From an uncultured Desulfobacterales bacterium (GTDB taxonomy: Bacteria; Desulfobacterota; Desulfobacteria; Desulfobacterales; JAHEIW01): 64,000 nucleotides of DNA. The notes below the pieces were generated by a model, which saw only the letters and a list, made by a program, of their open reading frames with translations, was not told where the DNA came from and ran no database searches. Position 1 is the stretch's first letter; the number at the start of each line of letters is the position of its first letter. The stretch lies in assembly GCA_947259495.1 (NCBI GenBank), contig CAMYLV010000009.1:1-64000 (forward strand), given 5' to 3'. Shown here piece after piece: positions 27,007 to 63,360 of the stretch. The translations under genes and the position numbers were made by a program.

Positions 27007-27102
27007 ATTAATCCCCATTTGACGCGAATCTACATCGATACTTTGTTACCAAATTTTTATTAATCCTCGTCTGACGCGAATCTACATCGATGCATTGTTC
27101 AC
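27007..27102. repeat. Two approx. 40-bp direct repeats, 52-bp period
   Basis: attaatccccatttgacgcgaatctacatcgatactttgtt and attaatcctcgtctgacgcgaatctacatcgatgcattgtt. Confidence 0.85.
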
Positions 27103-27270
27103 ATAAAGATACCCCCTTGTATAGTAAAGTATAATCAGCACCCCGCTTAACAGAAGCCGGCTGGCCAGCTTATTTATAACCAGCTGAATTTATTTGCCCT
27201 ATGATGCATCTCACTTTATGGTATGTCTTTTGCTTAGACTAGATCCCCAAAATGTTCTCTGTTCGGTCTT

Positions 27271-27370
27271 ATAGGGGTTGTAAAAAAACGTTTCATTATT
27301 CCAACGTTTTTTTCTACAACCACTGATACCCCAATTCCTTATTTTGAAATATAAATACGGAAAGCGGTAT
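27271..27370 (-). repeat. GTTGTAGAAAAAACGTT inverted-repeat element, copy A
   Basis: ggttgtaaaaaaacgtttcattattccaacgtttttttctacaaccactgataccccaattcc, followed by ggaaagcggtata. Confidence 0.8.
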
Positions 27371-27603
27371 AAAAGAGGGGGCCCCCACCTTAAGCCGCAT
27401 CACAAGCATATTTTTAAGCCTTACAGAATACAGATCTTCAAGAAAACTTCACCGGATTTTCCAAACCGGTGAAGGTCTTTCAACTTACGCATGGGAAGAA
27501 AATTTGTTTTTGAATTCTGCCGGAGGGCAGGATTTGGTTTGCCGCGCAACCCTAATTTTTATACTGGGTCTCTAGTGCTACGGCAGGCCAGATATCAAAA
27601 AAA

Positions 27604-38032: not shown

Positions 38033-38141
38033 CCCTGCAGCTTGCTGCAGGGTATCAAATTTGATTTAATCTTTTCCCCTCACCCTAACCCTCTCCCCAA
38101 GGAGAGGGAATCGGTGGGTGACCCTGTAGCGCGCTACAGGG
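38033..38141. repeat. Three successive perfect hairpins in a convergent intergenic region
   Basis: CCCTGCAGCTTGCTGCAGGG (38033-38052), CCCTCTCCCCAAGGAGAGGG (38089-38108), CCCTGTAGCGCGCTACAGGG (38122-38141). Confidence 0.8.
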
Positions 38142-38769: not shown

Positions 38770-38880
38770 TATAGTGGTTGTCAAAAAAACGTTGCGTTAA
38801 TCCAACGTTTTTTTCTACAACCACTTATACCCCAATTCCGTAATTGGGTGGTTTTTAACCGGGTGCTTTGCACCCGGATA
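38770..38880 (-). repeat. GTTGTAGAAAAAACGTT inverted-repeat element, copy B (long form)
   Basis: tatagtggttgtcaaaaaaacgttgcgttaatccaacgtttttttctacaaccacttataccccaattccgtaattggg...ccgggtgctttgcacccgg. Confidence 0.85.
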
Positions 38881-39182
38881 TCTTAAGCGCCAGATGTCCC
38901 TCACAAAGCTTTGCCGCATCGATGGTGGGGTCACCGCATCAGCAGTATTGTGGACTCCGCAAAATCCGTCAAATTACAGTCCTTAATGCTACCCGGCAAC
39001 GTCAGGATTTTGGCAGGATTGAATAAAATAGATCCAAAACCGACGTGGCGCTGCGATTCCAAATAAGCGTGCATCGGTTGGACGGCTTGCCTGCGGCGTC
39101 TTTGATGCTTAAGATTTCCTCATCATTCAATCAAACAAATTAACGGGTGCAGGCTGCGCCCGATTTCATTTAACGTATTTCT

Positions 39183-39283
39183 GCCGCTTTTCATATTAAT
39201 GTTCCGAATGGCGGAATTGCGGCATAAATAGTTGTAGAAAAAGAACGTTTTTATATCGGAACGTTTTTTTGACAACCACTATA
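39183..39283 (+). repeat. GTTGTAGAAAAAACGTT inverted-repeat element, copy C
   Basis: ccgcttttcatattaatgttccgaatggcggaattgcggcataaatagttgtagaaaaagaacgtttttatatcggaacgtttttttgacaaccactata. Confidence 0.85.
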
Positions 39284-39297
39284 GAAGGACTTTTACC

Positions 39298-41658
39298 GTG
39301 ACGCCGGAAATTGTACTGGTTTTGTCGATCCTGGCAATAGCGATCGTGTTTTTAATCAGCGAATGGATCCCGATGGAGGTCACCGCTTTGCTGGCACTGG
39401 GCGCTGTGGCCTTGACCGGTCTGGTCACGCCGGTTGAAGCGCTCGCGGGTTTCAGCAACCCGGCGGTTATTACGGTGTGGGCGGTCTTTATTCTCAGCGG
39501 CGGTTTGACCCGAACGGGTGTTGCCAATGTCATTGGTCGCTTTGTCCTACGCCTGGCGGGCGACAGTCAAACGGTCATGGTCATCGTTATCATGCTAACA
39601 GCCGGGGTGATGTCGGCTATCATGAACAATGTGGCGGTTGCGGCTCTGATGCTGCCGGTGGTCATGGATATTGCCCGCCACACCGGCAGTCCGCCCTCCC
39701 GGCTGTTGATGCCGCTGGCATATGGTTCGCTGTTGGGCGGTCTTACCACGCAGATCGGCACCCCCCCCAACATTCTGGTCACCGACGCCCTGCGCGATGC
39801 AGGACTCAAGCCCTACACCTTTTTTGATTTTACGCCCATCGGCCTGATCATCATGTTTGGCGGCATCGCCGTTATGACCTTTATCGGCCGTTACCTGCTG
39901 CCGCAGCGAGACGTCGCCAAAGATTCATCCCGCGCCAAGGGGGTCGACTGGCAGTCTCAAGACGATCCGGGAGAACAGCTGTTTAAAATCCGTATCCCGG
40001 CAGCCTCGAATCTGATCAACAAAACCCTGGCAGACAGCCGCATGGGATCGATCCTGGGCTGGAATGTTATCGGTATTACGCGCCATGAGCGCACCATCCT
40101 GGCGCCCGGGCCTTCCGATATTTTGCAGGCCAATGACCTGTTGACCGTTGAGGGCCGCATTGAAAATTTAGATGACCTGAAAAGCTGGCAGCAGTTGATT
40201 GTTGAAGACCAAAAAATCGATATAACCGAACCGTATTCGGATGAGATCAAAATCGGTGAAGTCCGCGTGCCGCCCGCCTCCCGGTTTGTGGGCAAAACCC
40301 TGAATGTCATGGAGTTTCGCACTCAATTTGGTGCCAATGTGCTGGCCATTTACCGCAACGGCAGCACCAAACGCACCCATCTGTCGGATGATCCCCTGCA
40401 GCCCCAGGATCGGCTGCTGGTGGCCGGTCATCAGGAGCGCCTGGAGGCGCTCAGGGAAACATCCGGATTCGATCAATTTCGCTTTGTTCCCCGCCAGGAA
40501 CTGATCGATGCTTATCATCTACATGAACGCCTGATGGTCATGCGGGTACCGCCGGACTCGCCGCTGGCTGGAAAATCACTCAAACACAGCCGTCTGGGAG
40601 ATGCGCTGGGCAGCCGGGTCCTGGGGATCATGCGGGGAAACGATCCCATCGTCATGCCGGAGCCCCAGGAAGTCCTGCAGGCTGACGATCGGCTGGCGGT
40701 TGAAGGTCGTCTGCGGGATTTTGAAGAATTGCAGGAACTTGAAAAACTGCAAATTGAACGGCGCACCCGCCCGGATATTCAATCACTGGTTTCGGGAAAT
40801 TTCGGCGTGGTGGAGGCTATCCTTTCCCCCCAGACAACTCTGGTGGGAAAAACCTTGCGCCAGTTGAATTTCCGTGAAAAATACGGTTTGAATGTTCTGG
40901 CCATCTGGCGCCGGGGCAACGCATTTCGGTCCGATCTGCGCGATATGGACCTGCGCTTCGGCGATGCTATCCTGCTACTGGGCCCGCGCGACAAACTCCA
41001 GCTGCTGGGCCGCGAGCCGGATTTTGTGGTTTTGACCGAAATGGCCCAGGAGGAATTACGGCTGGAGAAAATAAAAATCTCCGTTTTTATCATGGTGGCG
41101 GTTCTATTTCCGGTCATCATGGGATGGGTACCCATCTACATCGCTGCGGTGGTGGGAGCCGCTTTGATGGTCCTTTGCGGCTGCCTGACTATGGAAGAGG
41201 CCTACCGGCAAATCGAGTGGAAGGCCGTATTTTTAATCGCCGGCATGTTGCCCCTGGGAACGGCCCTGGATCAAACCGGCGCCGCCCGGATGATCGCCGA
41301 AACAGTTGTCGCGCTGGTGGGTCCTTTTGGTCCTACAGCAGTGATGTTCGGCCTGGTGGCCTTGACTTTTGCGGCCACCTGTTTTGTTCCCACCGCCGCC
41401 CTGATCGTTCTGATGGCGCCCATCGTATTGAGCACCGCGGCCAACACGGGGATGTCTCCTTATGCGCTGCTGATGGCGGTGGCCATGGCCGCCTCAGCCA
41501 GTTTTATGACCCCTATATCGCACCCGGCCAATATTCTGGTGATGGGGCCTGGGGGATATCGTTTTCTGGATTATATCAAGGTCGGCGGTCTGCTGACCCT
41601 GGTCATTTTGCTGATCATCGTTTTTGTGCTACCCTATTTCTGGCCCCTGGCCGGCTGA
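39298..41658 (+). CDS. SLC13/ArsB-type permease with TrkA-C domains (GTG start)
   Basis: 'EWIPMEVTALLALGAVALTGLVTPVEALAGFSNPAVITV', repeated TrkA-C-like 'VPPASRFVGKTL', 'GGLTTQIGTPPNILV'. Confidence 0.92.
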   Translation: MTPEIVLVLSILAIAIVFLISEWIPMEVTALLALGAVALTGLVTPVEALAGFSNPAVITVWAVFILSGGLTRTGVANVIGRFVLRLAGDSQTVMVIVIMLTAGVMSAIMNNVAVAALMLPVVMDIARHTGSPPSRLLMPLAYGSLLGGLTTQIGTPPNILVTDALRDAGLKPYTFFDFTPIGLIIMFGGIAVMTFIGRYLLPQRDVAKDSSRAKGVDWQSQDDPGEQLFKIRIPAASNLINKTLADSRMGSILGWNVIGITRHERTILAPGPSDILQANDLLTVEGRIENLDDLKSWQQLIVEDQKIDITEPYSDEIKIGEVRVPPASRFVGKTLNVMEFRTQFGANVLAIYRNGSTKRTHLSDDPLQPQDRLLVAGHQERLEALRETSGFDQFRFVPRQELIDAYHLHERLMVMRVPPDSPLAGKSLKHSRLGDALGSRVLGIMRGNDPIVMPEPQEVLQADDRLAVEGRLRDFEELQELEKLQIERRTRPDIQSLVSGNFGVVEAILSPQTTLVGKTLRQLNFREKYGLNVLAIWRRGNAFRSDLRDMDLRFGDAILLLGPRDKLQLLGREPDFVVLTEMAQEELRLEKIKISVFIMVAVLFPVIMGWVPIYIAAVVGAALMVLCGCLTMEEAYRQIEWKAVFLIAGMLPLGTALDQTGAARMIAETVVALVGPFGPTAVMFGLVALTFAATCFVPTAALIVLMAPIVLSTAANTGMSPYALLMAVAMAASASFMTPISHPANILVMGPGGYRFLDYIKVGGLLTLVILLIIVFVLPYFWPLAG

Positions 41659-41742
41659 CAGTGATCAATCAATGCAATCATAACACGCCGACCCCTTGTC
41701 GACGGGTCGTGTTGAAGGTCATCGCGTAAAGGAGGTGGCACA

Positions 41743-42987
41743 ATGGGTTATCTGATCGGAGAGACTCTCGTATATCTGATATTGGCGGCGATCATCGGAG
41801 CCGCCATTGCCTGGTTACTGCGGGGGGTGGGCTGTCGCTCCAGTGAAAATCAGCTCAAGACGGAGCTTGAACAAACCCGCAGCGCACTGGAAACTGCCGA
41901 AACCAACGGGCGTTCGCTTGAAAGCGCGCTCAACGAGCTGCGTGCTGAGATGGACAGTGAAGCCCGCAAACTTGAGGCCAGAATCAGGGGACTGGAAATC
42001 GAAAACGGCAAGCTCCAAGAGACACTCAGCGAACTGGAACCCCTGCCGGGCAGAGTTCAGGAGTGCGATACCATCATCGGCCACTGGGAAAGAGATTTTC
42101 AAAACCTTCAACAGCAGAGTGAGAGCGAAATTGCCAAACTGCAAGATAAAATTGCCGGGCTGGAACCGTTGCAGGCGGAGCTGGAAAACTCTCAAAAAGC
42201 ATATACGAAACTCAGCACTGAACTTCAGGCGTTACAAACCGTTGCACATCAGGAAAATCGAAAAGCACTACAAATTTCAAATCTGCAAAATGAGATTAAA
42301 AAATTGCAGTCCGTGTCGGCAAAGATAAAAGAGCGCGATACAACCGTGGAGCACCTCCAAAGCCAGTTGCGCTCCCAAGCCAAAACCAAGGATGAAGAAA
42401 TTGCACGCCTGCAAAAGGAGCTACAAACGCAGCACCGCAGCCGGCGGAAAAAAATTGACGCACTTGCTGAAAGGCTAACTAAAATCGAGCACCTGCCGCA
42501 AACCCTGGCCGAGCGCCAGCAGAAAATTACCCGTTTGCAGGAACAGCTGGGCAATGTGGAGCAACAAAAAAACCAGGAGCTGAGCGTGCTCAAGGCTAAA
42601 ATCAAAACGCTTGAGCCCTTTAAGGCGGCAGCTCAAGAACACAGCCGCGAGGTCGATCAGCTCAAACAACAGCTGGCAGCCGGCAAAAGCCGGGCAAAAC
42701 CCGCTGCCGGTGCAACAAAATCAGGCAAGCGTCCCCGGAAAAAGCAATTGTACACACCGCCGAAAGAAAAAGATGATCTCAAGCTCATCTATGGCATTGG
42801 TCCGGTAATGGAGCGGACCCTAAACAAACTGGGGGTGACTTCCTTTCAGCAGATAGCCAAATTTTCCCGCAAAGATATCGAACGCGTCGCCGGGGCGCTG
42901 CAATCCTTTCCAGATCGCATCATGCGCGATAACTGGGTCGGAGGTGCCAAAAAAGAATATCGCAAAAAATACGGTAAAACGCTTTAG
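41743..42987 (+). CDS. N-terminal TM, long coiled-coil, C-terminal helix-hairpin-helix-like domain protein
   Basis: Heptad-rich Gln/Glu/Leu core; C-terminal 'LKLIYGIGPVMERTLNKLGVTSFQQIAKFSRKDIERV'. Confidence 0.8.
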   Translation: MGYLIGETLVYLILAAIIGAAIAWLLRGVGCRSSENQLKTELEQTRSALETAETNGRSLESALNELRAEMDSEARKLEARIRGLEIENGKLQETLSELEPLPGRVQECDTIIGHWERDFQNLQQQSESEIAKLQDKIAGLEPLQAELENSQKAYTKLSTELQALQTVAHQENRKALQISNLQNEIKKLQSVSAKIKERDTTVEHLQSQLRSQAKTKDEEIARLQKELQTQHRSRRKKIDALAERLTKIEHLPQTLAERQQKITRLQEQLGNVEQQKNQELSVLKAKIKTLEPFKAAAQEHSREVDQLKQQLAAGKSRAKPAAGATKSGKRPRKKQLYTPPKEKDDLKLIYGIGPVMERTLNKLGVTSFQQIAKFSRKDIERVAGALQSFPDRIMRDNWVGGAKKEYRKKYGKTL

Positions 42988-43121
42988 CAGATTTGGATAA
43001 TTAGGATGGGATGGGGGTGTCAGGGAAAAGATCACCTCGCGGAGTCAATGTCAATTAAGAAAATGTAAAGGGGGATATACTGACCCGAACCAGAGACAAA
43101 AGCAGAATTGGCATAGGACTC

Positions 43122-43280
43122 ATGTATAAGGCGTCGGCTTCCTGTTATATACTTTCCTCCATCCGGAAAAGATTATCCCCCCCTGAAGGCCACATGCTGT
43201 TTGACATGGTTTTAAGCACCTTATCGGATGATAAGCGCTCGTGGCTTAAAACAGCCATGGCAGCATGGATTTCCCCTTAA
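43122..43280 (+). CDS. Possible 52-aa small protein
   Basis: Manual ORF MYKASASCYILSSIRKRLSPPEGHMLFDMVLSTLSDDKRSWLKTAMAAWISP*; below the ORF-track cutoff. Confidence 0.25.
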   Translation: MYKASASCYILSSIRKRLSPPEGHMLFDMVLSTLSDDKRSWLKTAMAAWISP

Positions 43281-43339
43281 GAAAAACCAGTGATTTGCCG
43301 ATATTATTGCAGGCAAAAAGCCAGGGAGATTTTTCGATA

Positions 43340-43450
43340 ATTCGGGTGCAAAGCACCCGGTTTGAAAACACCCAAATACGGAATTGGGGTATTAGTGGTT
43401 GTAGAAAAAAACGTTGGACTAACAGAACGTTTTTCTGACAAACACTATAA
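43340..43450 (+). repeat. GTTGTAGAAAAAACGTT inverted-repeat element, copy D (long form)
   Basis: cgggtgcaaagcacccggtttgaaaacacccaaatacggaattggggtattagtggttgtagaaaaaaacgttggactaacagaacgtttttctgacaaacactata. Confidence 0.85.
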
Positions 43451-43469
43451 AGGACTGCAGGTGGAATTT

Positions 43470-43751
43470 ATGATTAATGATCACATCGTACAGCGCAGAA
43501 GCGGTGAAGATCGGCGTAAAAAACACGACAGACGCAGCGGTTTTGACCGACGTACCGGGAGCTTTGCCAAAGGATTTGATGAAAATGGCCAGGAAAACGT
43601 CTATACCACCAAAGAGGCCTGTGAATATCTTAAGATTTCGCGCCCCACCTATCTCAAGTACATTGCGGAAGGCCGCCTCAGAGCCATTAAAGTCGGCCGC
43701 GGTTGGCGCACGCTCAAAACCGAACTGGACCGGTTTTTACGCGGAGACTAA
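43470..43751 (+). CDS. Excisionase/MerR-like HTH DNA-binding protein with RRSGxDRR-rich N-terminus
   Basis: 'YTTKEACEYLKISRPTYLKYIAEGRLRAIKVGRGWRTLKTELDRFL' (HTH_17-like). Confidence 0.85.
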   Translation: MINDHIVQRRSGEDRRKKHDRRSGFDRRTGSFAKGFDENGQENVYTTKEACEYLKISRPTYLKYIAEGRLRAIKVGRGWRTLKTELDRFLRGD

Positions 43752-43762
43752 ATCTTTTCTAC

Positions 43763-44182
43763 TTAATTCATAAAGCCGCCGCTACCGCCGGAAACTTTAC
43801 TTTCGCTTACTTTTCGAACGATACCGCTTTTTTCAAAATAGACATATAAATTGCAATTTTTTTTATCAATTGAAACCCGACCCGCACCCAGCCGGTCTTT
43901 ACTGAATGACTTGAAAGCAGACCCGCCGCTGCTGCCGCTGGGCGAGGTGACTTTATAAGTATACTTCCACAGTTCGCCTTTATTTAGCGCACCTTCAACC
44001 TTGTCGGGATCGCCGATGAGTTGCTTCACATCTTCTTTGGTCGACTTGCCCTGCTGAATCTGACCAATAATCTTGGGATCGCACACATCGCTGTTACCGC
44101 TAGCTGAACGGGCAAAATCGGGCAAAACTATTGCCATTGTAAATAGACAAACCGTCAGGGCGGTTATATATTTACCATTCAT
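43763..44182 (-). CDS. SmpA/OmlA (BamE)-like exported protein
   Basis: Signal peptide, 'IGQIQQGKSTKEDVKQLIGDPDKVEGALNKGELWKYTY'. Confidence 0.65.
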   Translation of the reverse strand: MNGKYITALTVCLFTMAIVLPDFARSASGNSDVCDPKIIGQIQQGKSTKEDVKQLIGDPDKVEGALNKGELWKYTYKVTSPSGSSGGSAFKSFSKDRLGAGRVSIDKKNCNLYVYFEKSGIVRKVSESKVSGGSGGFMN

Positions 44183-44365
44183 ATTTTATCCTCCTTTCCA
44201 CAAACGGCAAAGGAAACTGAGAACCAGATGATGATTTTTGTGGTTAAAGATAATTCCCTAATTTTGATTGACAACCCCGAGCTTGAAATAAGCGTTGACA
44301 GATGACATCAAACATATTGACTTTGACAGCCATACCGGAGACATAAAAGCCGCAGGAGACAAAAA

Positions 44366-45274
44366 TTGAAACCCATAAAATTGGCAACCATGGATTGCCA
44401 ACAGGTCTGTGAAGAGATCGGTGATTTTGTCATCGAAATGGTGCTGACGACCGCTTCCAGCGGGTGTGTGATCGGATTGTCGGGTGGCGTCGATTCGAGC
44501 ACGGCGGCAGCGCTGATCAAAACCGGTTTTGATCGCCATAATGCCAAACTTGCAAAAGATCAGCCGGCGCATGAGTTGGTGGGCTATATCTTGCCGTCAA
44601 GCATCAATGCGACCCGGGACGAAACCGACGCCGCTTCGGTGGCCGAACATCTGGGGTTGCGTTATGAAATTCACAACATCGAAGGCCTGCTGGAACCTTT
44701 CAAGTTAACCAATCCGGAAGCATTTGATGATAAATTCCATAAAGGCAATATGATCTCCAGGATCCGGGCCAACGTTTTGTCAACCAAAGCAGCGACAGAA
44801 AATAAAATTTTAGCCGGCACCGGCAACCGCGATGAAGATTTCGGCATCGGTTATTACACCCTTTTCGGGGACGGGGCCGTGCACCTCAGCCCCATCGCCG
44901 GTTTACCCAAACGGCTTGTACGTGAAATGGCCGCCTTCCTGGGGCTGGACAAACAGATCATCCACCGCGAACCGACTGCCGGTTTGGAACCGGGCCAGAG
45001 CGATTTTAAAGACCTGGGATATGATTATGATGTGGTTGAAATGATCACCGAGGGCCTTGAGCAGGGGTTTTCCAAAGAGGTGCTGATCAAACACACGCAA
45101 ATTGCCCCGCTGGTCAAGCGACAAATCAAGCAATACCAATCGCTTTACGGCGATGAAAAGTTGCCTTCCGTGGTAGCCGTAGTGGAAGATGTGATCAAGC
45201 GGCATCAGCAGGCCAAAGGCAAAATGAAAATTATCCATCCGCCCAAACCCAAAATCACATTGACATACGATTGA
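44366..45274 (+). CDS. nadE: NAD(+) synthetase
   Basis: SGGVDSSTAAALI, 'GTGNRDEDFGIGYYTLFGDGAVHLSPIAGLPKRLVREMA'. Confidence 0.95.
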   Translation: MKPIKLATMDCQQVCEEIGDFVIEMVLTTASSGCVIGLSGGVDSSTAAALIKTGFDRHNAKLAKDQPAHELVGYILPSSINATRDETDAASVAEHLGLRYEIHNIEGLLEPFKLTNPEAFDDKFHKGNMISRIRANVLSTKAATENKILAGTGNRDEDFGIGYYTLFGDGAVHLSPIAGLPKRLVREMAAFLGLDKQIIHREPTAGLEPGQSDFKDLGYDYDVVEMITEGLEQGFSKEVLIKHTQIAPLVKRQIKQYQSLYGDEKLPSVVAVVEDVIKRHQQAKGKMKIIHPPKPKITLTYD

Positions 45275-45302
45275 TCAATTTTTGCTTTTCTCTAAATAAT
45301 TT

Positions 45303-45403
45303 ATACCGCTTTTCATAATAGTGTCCCGATTCACGGAATTGCGGCATAAGGGGTTGTAGAAAAAACGTTTGAATATCGGAACGTTTTTTTGACAACCACT
45401 ATA
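45303..45403 (+). repeat. GTTGTAGAAAAAACGTT inverted-repeat element, copy E
   Basis: taccgcttttcataatagtgtcccgattcacggaattgcggcataaggggttgtagaaaaaacgtttgaatatcggaacgtttttttgacaaccactata. Confidence 0.85.
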
Positions 45404-45437
45404 ACACCCAAAAAAGACCATAGATGAGGGGAGAAAA

Positions 45438-45920
45438 ATGTCTGAAGATGCCTTGCGCAAGCAATTATATGGATCATTTAAAAACCGCGCCATGATGTAC
45501 TGGCACATTTTTGAAGCACTGAAGATAGAAGTCGGCGAACAAAAAGCCACCGAGATCATAAACCGCGGGATATACAACCGCGGCCTGGAAATCGGCAAGC
45601 CGTTCAAAAAATTCGCGCCCGCTGACCTGCACGGATTAAAACATGCCTTTTTCGATTTTATTCCCGATGGGGGCAAAATGTTTGATCCCGAAGTGTTGAA
45701 ATGTGATGAGAGCGGCCTGGTCATTAAGATGCGCCGCTGCCCCCTGAAAGAGGTCTGGCAGAATGCGGGGTTAAGGGATAGCGACATTGCCAAGATGTGT
45801 GATATGGCGGGCATTGTTGATAAAGGCACCTTCGAAGGTGCCGGGTTTGGCTTTTCAGCTGAAACCTGGGCGCCGGGACAGCAAGGGTGCTGCCTGCTAA
45901 AAATTAGGCCTGGAAAATAA
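45438..45920 (+). CDS. L-2-amino-thiazoline-4-carboxylic acid hydrolase family protein
   Basis: 'CPLKEVWQNAGLRDSDIAKMCDMAGIVDKGTFEGAGFGFSAETWAPGQQGCCLLKIRPG' resembles the ATC hydrolase family. Confidence 0.75.
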   Translation: MSEDALRKQLYGSFKNRAMMYWHIFEALKIEVGEQKATEIINRGIYNRGLEIGKPFKKFAPADLHGLKHAFFDFIPDGGKMFDPEVLKCDESGLVIKMRRCPLKEVWQNAGLRDSDIAKMCDMAGIVDKGTFEGAGFGFSAETWAPGQQGCCLLKIRPGK

Positions 45921-46121
45921 AGCATCCAGACGGCTTTTCATGATCATGACGGAAAAAAAAGCTAAAGTTAACCGTAATATGGCAGATAATAATATCGGGG
46001 GATTTGTGACTTTCTGGCGCGGTAATGCCGTCCGCAAAATCCAAATTGCCCCCTTATCAGCGTACAGTCCAGCATTCGGACAATCGATCCGTTCATAATT
46101 GCCCGGCCTTGGGGGGCTTAG

Positions 46122-46487
46122 ATGCGTAAGAGTCTTTACCGTTTGGTCTTGATGTTGGTCATTGTCAGTTTCACCTGCCTGATTGGCGGCTGTAATTCAA
46201 TTCCGGTTCCGGAAGAAAAAAAATCTTATATCGGAACATGGGAAGGTGTCGGCTTTCACCTGACCATAAGCGACAATGGCGGCGTTAATTACCGGCGGGT
46301 AAATGGAAAACGTTCAACCAAGGTCTCCGGTCCCCTGAAAAATTTTGCGGGGGATGATTTCATTGTCGGTGTGCTGTTTTTCACTACAACCTTTGAGGTG
46401 CATAAGCCGCCATACCTGGATGGCGACGACTGGTTCATGGTGGTCGACGGCGTTGAATTGAGAAAAGTTGCCGGACCGATTACCTGA
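46122..46487 (+). CDS. Hypothetical lipoprotein
   Basis: Lipobox SFTCLIGGCNSI. Confidence 0.6.
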   Translation: MRKSLYRLVLMLVIVSFTCLIGGCNSIPVPEEKKSYIGTWEGVGFHLTISDNGGVNYRRVNGKRSTKVSGPLKNFAGDDFIVGVLFFTTTFEVHKPPYLDGDDWFMVVDGVELRKVAGPIT

Positions 46488-46519
46488 ACCTTTTTAATAA
46501 GCGCTTCACCCTCCACTTT

Positions 46520-46576
46520 TAGAGATTGTAAAAAAAACATTGTGGTATTCAAACGTTTTTTTTACAACCACTATAA
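46520..46576 (+). repeat. GTTGTAGAAAAAACGTT inverted-repeat element, copy F (short form)
   Basis: tagagattgtaaaaaaaacattgtggtattcaaacgttttttttacaaccactata. Confidence 0.75.
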
Positions 46577-46607: not shown

Positions 46608-47072
46608 ATGCGCCTGAAATGGACTGGCCTGGTGGTTCTTCTGGGATTTTTCGCGGTATCCTGTGCCACAGACTCCGGACCACGATTCAAAAATTTGCGA
46701 GCCGCAGAGCAACAGCGAACCCAGCAGCAATTGGAGAACAACTGGTCTCAATACATAATTTATTACATTCCGCAACATGCCGTTTTATTTGATCCTAAAG
46801 ATGACAATAACACCCTGAAGGTGAGCGGACGGTGGATCAAGGTGGGTGATCAAAAGACCTGGATAGCAATTTTGCGGCAAAACACCCAGACTTCTGACAA
46901 TATTATCAGTGTCTGGCTGGGTTCAAGAACCGGATTTCTTGAAATCATCGGACCCGATGAACAGTTTTTCGGTTATTTGGTCCATGAAAAAATGGACCTG
47001 GTGGCGCTAAAAATCATCGACCGCAATACGATGCGAATCTATTACTCACCGCAAAGAACCGACGGACCTTGA
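46608..47072 (+). CDS. Hypothetical lipoprotein
   Basis: MRLKWTGLVVLLGFFAVSCATD lipobox. Confidence 0.65.
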   Translation: MRLKWTGLVVLLGFFAVSCATDSGPRFKNLRAAEQQRTQQQLENNWSQYIIYYIPQHAVLFDPKDDNNTLKVSGRWIKVGDQKTWIAILRQNTQTSDNIISVWLGSRTGFLEIIGPDEQFFGYLVHEKMDLVALKIIDRNTMRIYYSPQRTDGP

Positions 47073-63151: not shown

Positions 63152-63360
63152 TTTATACCGTTTTACGTAATAATGTTCCGTGCTAACGGCATCAAGTCTA
63201 CTTTCGGCTAAATCAAGGAAATGGTTTAGGGTTTTTTCACCCCTAAGACCTTTATATTTCATAAAAAGCCGTTCGGGCCCGTCAGGAAAGTAACATATCC
63301 GCTGTAACAAATTTTACAGAATTGAGAATTTCGGAACATTATTATGAAAAGCGGTATAAA
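63152..63360. mobile_element. Candidate MITE-like element with approx. 26-bp terminal inverted repeats
   Basis: TATACCGTTTTACGTAATAATGTTCCG at left; CGGAACATTATTATGAAAAGCGGTATA at right; TIR ends also found in repeat copies A, C and E. Confidence 0.65.

Follow-up and report, generated by a model that had tools for sequence, protein, structure and literature searches.

The closest described counterparts of the repeats analysed here are RUP, the repeat unit of pneumococcus, and the Correia/NEMIS elements of Neisseria. RUP is an IS630-Spn1-related MITE of 107 bp, present in about 110 copies, which is mostly intergenic, has TA as its target, and possesses ends that resemble those of an IS630-family element (PMC2229807, PMC3049150). 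A length of 9 bp is listed for its terminal repeat. Correia/NEMIS are short, intergenic fold-back elements with long terminal repeats and TA termini (PMC2229807, PMC2649163).

Set against these published descriptions, the repeats of an uncultured Desulfobacterales bacterium share with RUP their size, intergenic placement and IS630-like ends, and probably TA at the target. They share with Correia/NEMIS the general plan of fold-back, long terminal repeats, TA and intergenic location. They differ from RUP in that the host belongs to another phylum, the ends are imperfect and about 27 bp long, an internal fold-back arm is present, and no autonomous partner was found in the same genome. In contrast to Correia/NEMIS, no promoter-like ends were found, and the partner IS630 ends could be identified in relatives. 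As both comparisons are by description only, the repeats are filed as an IS630-derived MITE and not as RUP or Correia. It is very probable that they constitute a non-autonomous MITE family, which arose by internal deletion from an insertion sequence of the IS630/Tc1-mariner family (e.g. ISY100, PMC2170065). The terminal repeats and the 3' end of the transposase gene of this presumed parent match the MITE, whereas the 105-bp element itself encodes no transposase. A literature search, with most subscription journals outside it, found no paper joining IS630, MITE and Desulfobact*.

Copies in the window and architecture of the element

The window, i.e. the whole 64-kb stretch of DNA that was analysed, contains six copies of the repeat (A to F) and a further left-end fragment.

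27270..27373, minus strand: copy A, a complete element of about 105 bp with a full-length nhmmer match
38770..38848, minus strand: copy B, the right part of the long form, followed by the insert tail to about 38883
38770-38796: right terminal repeat of copy B
39178..39283, plus strand: copy C, a complete element, its right end 14 bp before an SLC13/CitMHS-type gene (39298)
39257..39283, plus strand: the 27-bp right terminal repeat of copy C, CGGAACGTTTTTTTGACAACCACTATA, which matches the IS630 right end
43371..43449, plus strand: copy D, the right part of the long form, with the insert tail from about 43345
45300..45403, plus strand: copy E, a complete element with NAD synthase on one side and an ATC-hydrolase-like gene on the other
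45301..45327, plus strand: left terminal repeat region of copy E, TTATACCGCTTTTCATAATAGTGTCCC
46520..46575, plus strand: copy F, the right palindrome only, with nearly symmetrical arms
63324..63359, minus strand: left-end fragment of a further copy

The observation of repeats in an earlier, sequence-only reading of this DNA was real and is in part confirmed. All six copies lie where that reading had placed them. The distances that it gave from copies C, D, E and F to the next gene starts (about 15, 20, 35 and 30 bp) were measured as 14 bp, 21 bp (HTH gene, 43471), 34 bp (start at 45438) and 32 bp (start at 46608). Copy B is indeed inverted and faces a minus-strand gene, the start of which (38590) is 179 bp away. 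Copy A is antisense to both flanking genes. The right core of the repeat, AACGTTTTTTTGACAACCACTATA, has five matches in the window at up to three mismatches, compared with 0.00 expected by chance and none in shuffled sequence. The consensus as it had been typed, with a single N between the arms, has zero matches at the same tolerance because the real spacer is 8-10 nucleotides long.

The extent of the repeat had been recognised correctly for its right half only, and about 50 bp more to the left, TTATACCGC...GCGG[C/T]ATAA, had been missed. Alignment of 30 genomic copies revealed a second hairpin on this left side. At full length the element comprises about 105 bp, TTATACCGC...CGGAACGTTTTTTTGACAACCACTATAA, and its ends are sharp both in the host genome and in other families; the complete unit reads TTATACCGCTTTCCATAATAATGTTCCGnnnnnCGGAAttGCGG[C/T]ATAA-GTGGTTGTAGAAAAAAACGTT-N8-10-AACGTTTTTTTGACAACCACTATAA. 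The left end is identical to the right end at 19-21 of 27 positions, and the fold-back arm TATAAGTGGTTGTAGAAAAAAACGTT sits between the two ends. In a long form of about 230 bp, a hairpin-rich repeat of about 126 bp, CCGGGTGC...AAAACCACCC, is inserted in the left hairpin, and its tail is kept in copies B and D. As is usual for a MITE, the element is shorter than 300 bp, non-coding and multicopy, and has fixed boundaries.

Probable IS630 parentage and spread among relatives

DDE_3 transposase genes were sought in seven element-bearing genomes, and their flanks were scanned with the element profile. Locus L306 of genome G021 encodes an intact transposase of 341 amino acids (216.6 bits to NF033545, the NCBIfam IS630 model; Pfam DDE_3, PF13358). 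One end of this locus, TATAGTATTTGTCAAAATAACGTTCCG, is identical to the right end of the repeat at 24 of 27 positions, the next best place in the locus reaching 16/27; no left end could be recognised in L306. Genome G005, a member of the host's genus, carries IS630 copies with internal deletions. The left ends of two of them (L308 and L309), TATAGCGGTTGTCATAAATATGTTCCG, agree in 23 of 27 positions with the right end of the repeat and in 21-23 with its left end, and their right ends match the repeat at 21/27 (that of L309 at 1403). A fourth IS630 copy, L194, also in G005, has transposase residues 144-305 deleted and keeps the same right end. The family consensus of the left terminal repeat, TATACCGCTTTCCATAATAATGTTCCG, agrees with the IS630 left end at 21/27. 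Altogether, the 27-bp ends are shared with L306, L308 and L309 at 21-24 positions, as is typical of a MITE and its parent. The internally deleted copies in G005 look like intermediates on the path from insertion sequence to MITE.

The resemblance extends into the coding sequence. The transposase gene of L306 ends ATC GGA ACG TTA TTT TGA (IGTLF-stop) and leads directly into the terminal repeat. The corresponding stretch of the repeat is ATATCGGAACGTTTTTTTGACAACCACTATA, and the TGA in the right terminal repeat of copy C corresponds to the transposase stop codon. As the stop codon of L306 abuts the terminal repeat, the 'TTGACA' of the repeat is best read as a remnant of the stop codon and the terminal repeat.

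By combining these observations, it is possible to outline how the family may have spread. The two ends of the element would be IS630 terminal repeats, the right one keeping the last transposase codons and the stop. A transposase acting in trans would bind to both ends, excise the element and place it at a new TA dinucleotide; the insertions that persist would be mostly intergenic, of either orientation. DDE_3 genes were found in G005 (deleted copies) and G021 (intact), and were not detected in the host genome (G000, 97% complete) or in the copy-rich genomes G003, G106, G137 and G007. Since the mobiliser is unseen where the copies are, we infer that an IS630-type transposase moved the 105-bp element in trans, and that its gene has presumably been lost from the host genome or is unassembled there. 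Neither a partner transposase nor an IS630 element was found in the host genome itself; such a partner is not strictly defining, as MITEs can outlive theirs. Metagenome assemblies often miss insertion sequences. Pairs of half-elements were also considered as an insertion sequence with a gene between its ends, and the intervening genes proved to be ordinary, with no transposase among them.

The mobility of the element, which the sequence-only reading had proposed, is borne out by empty orthologous sites, by genome-specific expansions and by the IS630 relative with the same ends. Syntenic regions of genomes of the same genus were fetched, and the junctions were read from the raw sequence. At the orthologous intergenic sites, G004 lacks copies B, C and E, and G003 lacks copy F. 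Conversely, the site orthologous to one G003 copy is empty in the host genome (C2:176709). Such insertion polymorphism between relatives is characteristic of MITEs. The empty site has TA at the junction for copies E and C and for the G003 element; in one example the junctions read TTTTTTA/CGCC (empty) and TTTA[element]TA/ACACC. The junctions are consistent with a 2-bp TA duplication, short of base-by-base proof as the flanks are about 80% identical. In a set of 160 complete copies drawn from ten genomes, the elements are bordered by TATACC...CTATA, with T before in 83% and A after in 65%, giving a flank preference of TT/TATACC...CTATA/AA.

The family is present in 17 of the 146 genomes and 12 of the 104 genera sampled in the order. 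Other families of the order have complete copies with sequence variants of their own; G030, for instance, has 41 full copies with GCGG/CCGC arms, and the variant in G003 is GTGTTGTAGC. The genome-specific variants together with the patchy occurrence form a pattern of repeated, separate expansions.

Placement relative to genes and alternative explanations

In the 69 contigs (4.44 Mb) of the host genome, the right-end core matches 226 times and a reversed control pattern does not match at all. The positions of elements and genes were surveyed in eight contigs or parts of contigs (1.56 Mb, about 35% of the host genome), in which genes and starts were called by a simple hexamer model; the start calls are approximate. 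None of the 120 elements in these 1.56 Mb is inside a predicted gene, the coding fraction being 82% (in the first 1.18 Mb).

The sequence-only reading had interpreted the repeats as a mobile 5'-leader or promoter element of consistent polarity, which sits in gene orientation before unrelated genes and drives or controls them, rather than as random MITE scatter. This is very unlikely to be so. Four of the six copies in the window do lie upstream of genes and roughly in the sense direction. This holds for C, D and E, whereas the polarity of copy F (24 bits on the plus strand, 25 bits on the minus strand) is nearly ambiguous because its right palindrome alone is present; the consistent polarity therefore comes down to three copies and an ambiguous fourth, and genome-wide it does not hold. 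With each palindrome counted once rather than on both strands, the de-duplicated elements in same-strand intergenic regions of the host genome are sense in 41 cases and antisense in 36 (p=0.65). The ratio is 38:34 outside the window and 27:27 for complete or long copies. It is 13:19 and 16:13 in the independent sets of congeners and other families, respectively. A lack of genome-wide bias is what the sequence-only reading had itself named as its refutation, and for orientation this is what was found. The same-strand placement before genes in the window is a coincidence of few copies.

Distance to gene starts gave a divided result. For right ends, 18 cases were counted at 5-45 bp ahead of sense starts, compared with 11.7 under random placement (P=0.029), and 16 compared with 10.7 when the window is excluded (P=0.063). 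Left ends show no excess (10 against 11.6 expected). The right-end excess recurs in congeners (6 against 3.7) and in other families (7 against 5.1), significant in neither. When all starts from 60 bp inside the element to 45 bp away from it are counted, the numbers are 17 and 11. The reversed left end contains ATG, so that called starts may move into the element and the excess may result from the start calling itself. The proximity to starts is a weak tendency. It is conceivable, though unlikely, that right ends near starts are tolerated or favoured there because they are compatible with the expression of the downstream gene at the transcriptional or translational level, or modulate it, with a mild polarity confined to these sites.

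The promoter-like segments do not support a leader or promoter. TTGACA and TATA are separated by 5 nucleotides and therefore do not form a sigma-70 promoter. A promoter scan found no TTGACA/TATAAT-type site built from them, and only two promoter-like matches overlap elements, both at copy F and both with the minimal score (9/12). The TTGACA, moreover, aligns with the stop codon and terminal repeat of the related transposase. The earlier interpretation is thus partly supported, 'mobile' being the only part that was right.

The folding of the element raises the question of a conserved structured RNA, such as a riboregulator, an attenuator or an RNase III site, kept by selection at each site. The consensus fold is strong (-35.0 kcal/mol), and in 160 copies one outer pair covaries (T-A, C-G, G-C), being paired in 88% compared with 55% by shuffling. 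All other pairs are conserved at roughly the frequency expected from shuffling, in a statistic of limited power as related copies share ancestry; covariation judged by eye across genomes survives for this single pair only. The pairing at shuffled frequency suggests that the decay of inserted copies affects single arms. We read the symmetry of the arms as belonging to the spreading elements, the inserted copies decaying without compensation. Sense and antisense copies are equally common, close relatives have empty orthologous sites, and Rfam has no relevant match to the element, all of which leaves a site-by-site selected RNA with practically no probability. A high-copy palindromic intergenic repeat also recalls REP/BIME sequences, which are moved by RAYT, a Y1 tyrosine transposase. 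The host genome contains three Y1_Tnp genes, and GTAG is present in the arm. The GTAG lies within the stem, however, and is no terminal tag, and the ends of the element differ from those of REP/BIME and match IS630 instead. No copy lies within 1.5 kb of any of the three host Y1 genes. Among the 27 Y1 genes of seven other genomes, two (both in G005) lie close to an element or a piece of one of its ends, and none of the 27 is flanked on both sides, so that the arrangement of a REPtron, in which copies flank the Y1 transposase gene, was not found. G106 (70% complete) has many near-identical copies and no detected Y1 gene. Movement by a RAYT is consequently extremely unlikely.

With the repeats assigned to an IS630-derived MITE family, an apparent regulatory cassette becomes a traceable transposon remnant. 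The case also serves as a warning not to infer polarity when a single window offers only a few copies. The family itself is useful, as it is patchy across the order and has expanded separately in several genomes.

Repeats within and beside the MITE copies

In the host genome (G000), some MITE copies carry in their left hairpin a repeat of about 126 bp, which is found also away from recognised MITE ends; 15 matches were obtained in the 1.56 Mb of G000 searched. This hairpin-rich repeat is distinct from the MITE and reads GAGTCACCGACCACCCGC...CCGGGTGCAAAGCACCCGGTT..AAAACACCC.

Sites of the repeat of about 126 bp
G000 C5:69016-69129, repeat
G000 C10:128299-128413, repeat
G000 C10:6597-6704, repeat
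G000 C2:41526-41631, repeat
Window, about 38848-38883, tail only, at copy B
Window, about 43345-43371, tail only, at copy D

Upstream of window copy A, TTAATCCYCRTYTGACGCGAATCTACATCGAT is present twice at 27007-27100, near-identical and in direct orientation. A CCTCACCCTAACCCTCTCC repeat of the window contains, at 38076-38110 (minus strand), a weak Rfam match to whalefall-1 RNA, its 27.4 bits lying below the gathering score of 37.

Partial MITE copies

Solo and tandem right ends are partial MITE copies with a left border close to the point at which the former transposase gene was joined on. The solo ends in G000 start at the loop (AATAYCGGAACG...); the five sites listed are examples, and further ones exist.

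Right ends of the MITE
G000 C10:46896, solo
G000 C10:247441, solo
G000 C2:98002, solo
G000 C5:28431, solo
G000 C5:124186, solo
Locus L006, tandem
Locus L013, tandem
C5:20461, tandem
C10:117757, tandem

The copy at G000 C2:125078-125157 ends abruptly at the palindrome loop, whereas the matching place in the same-genus genome G005 (contig C42, L186 8867-8970) holds a full-length copy, which suggests that sequence was lost at the hairpin after insertion.

Internally deleted IS630 copies

The transposase gene is internally deleted, differently in each, in the IS630 copies of three G005 loci.

IS630 copies with internal deletions in G005
L194 2391-2947
L308 1148-1778
L309 1403-1873

L308 and L309 also contain, some 100 bp in from the left end, an internal copy of the terminal repeat in inverted orientation. 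Because of this inverted internal repeat and their internal deletions, both copies look like intermediates between the IS and the MITE.
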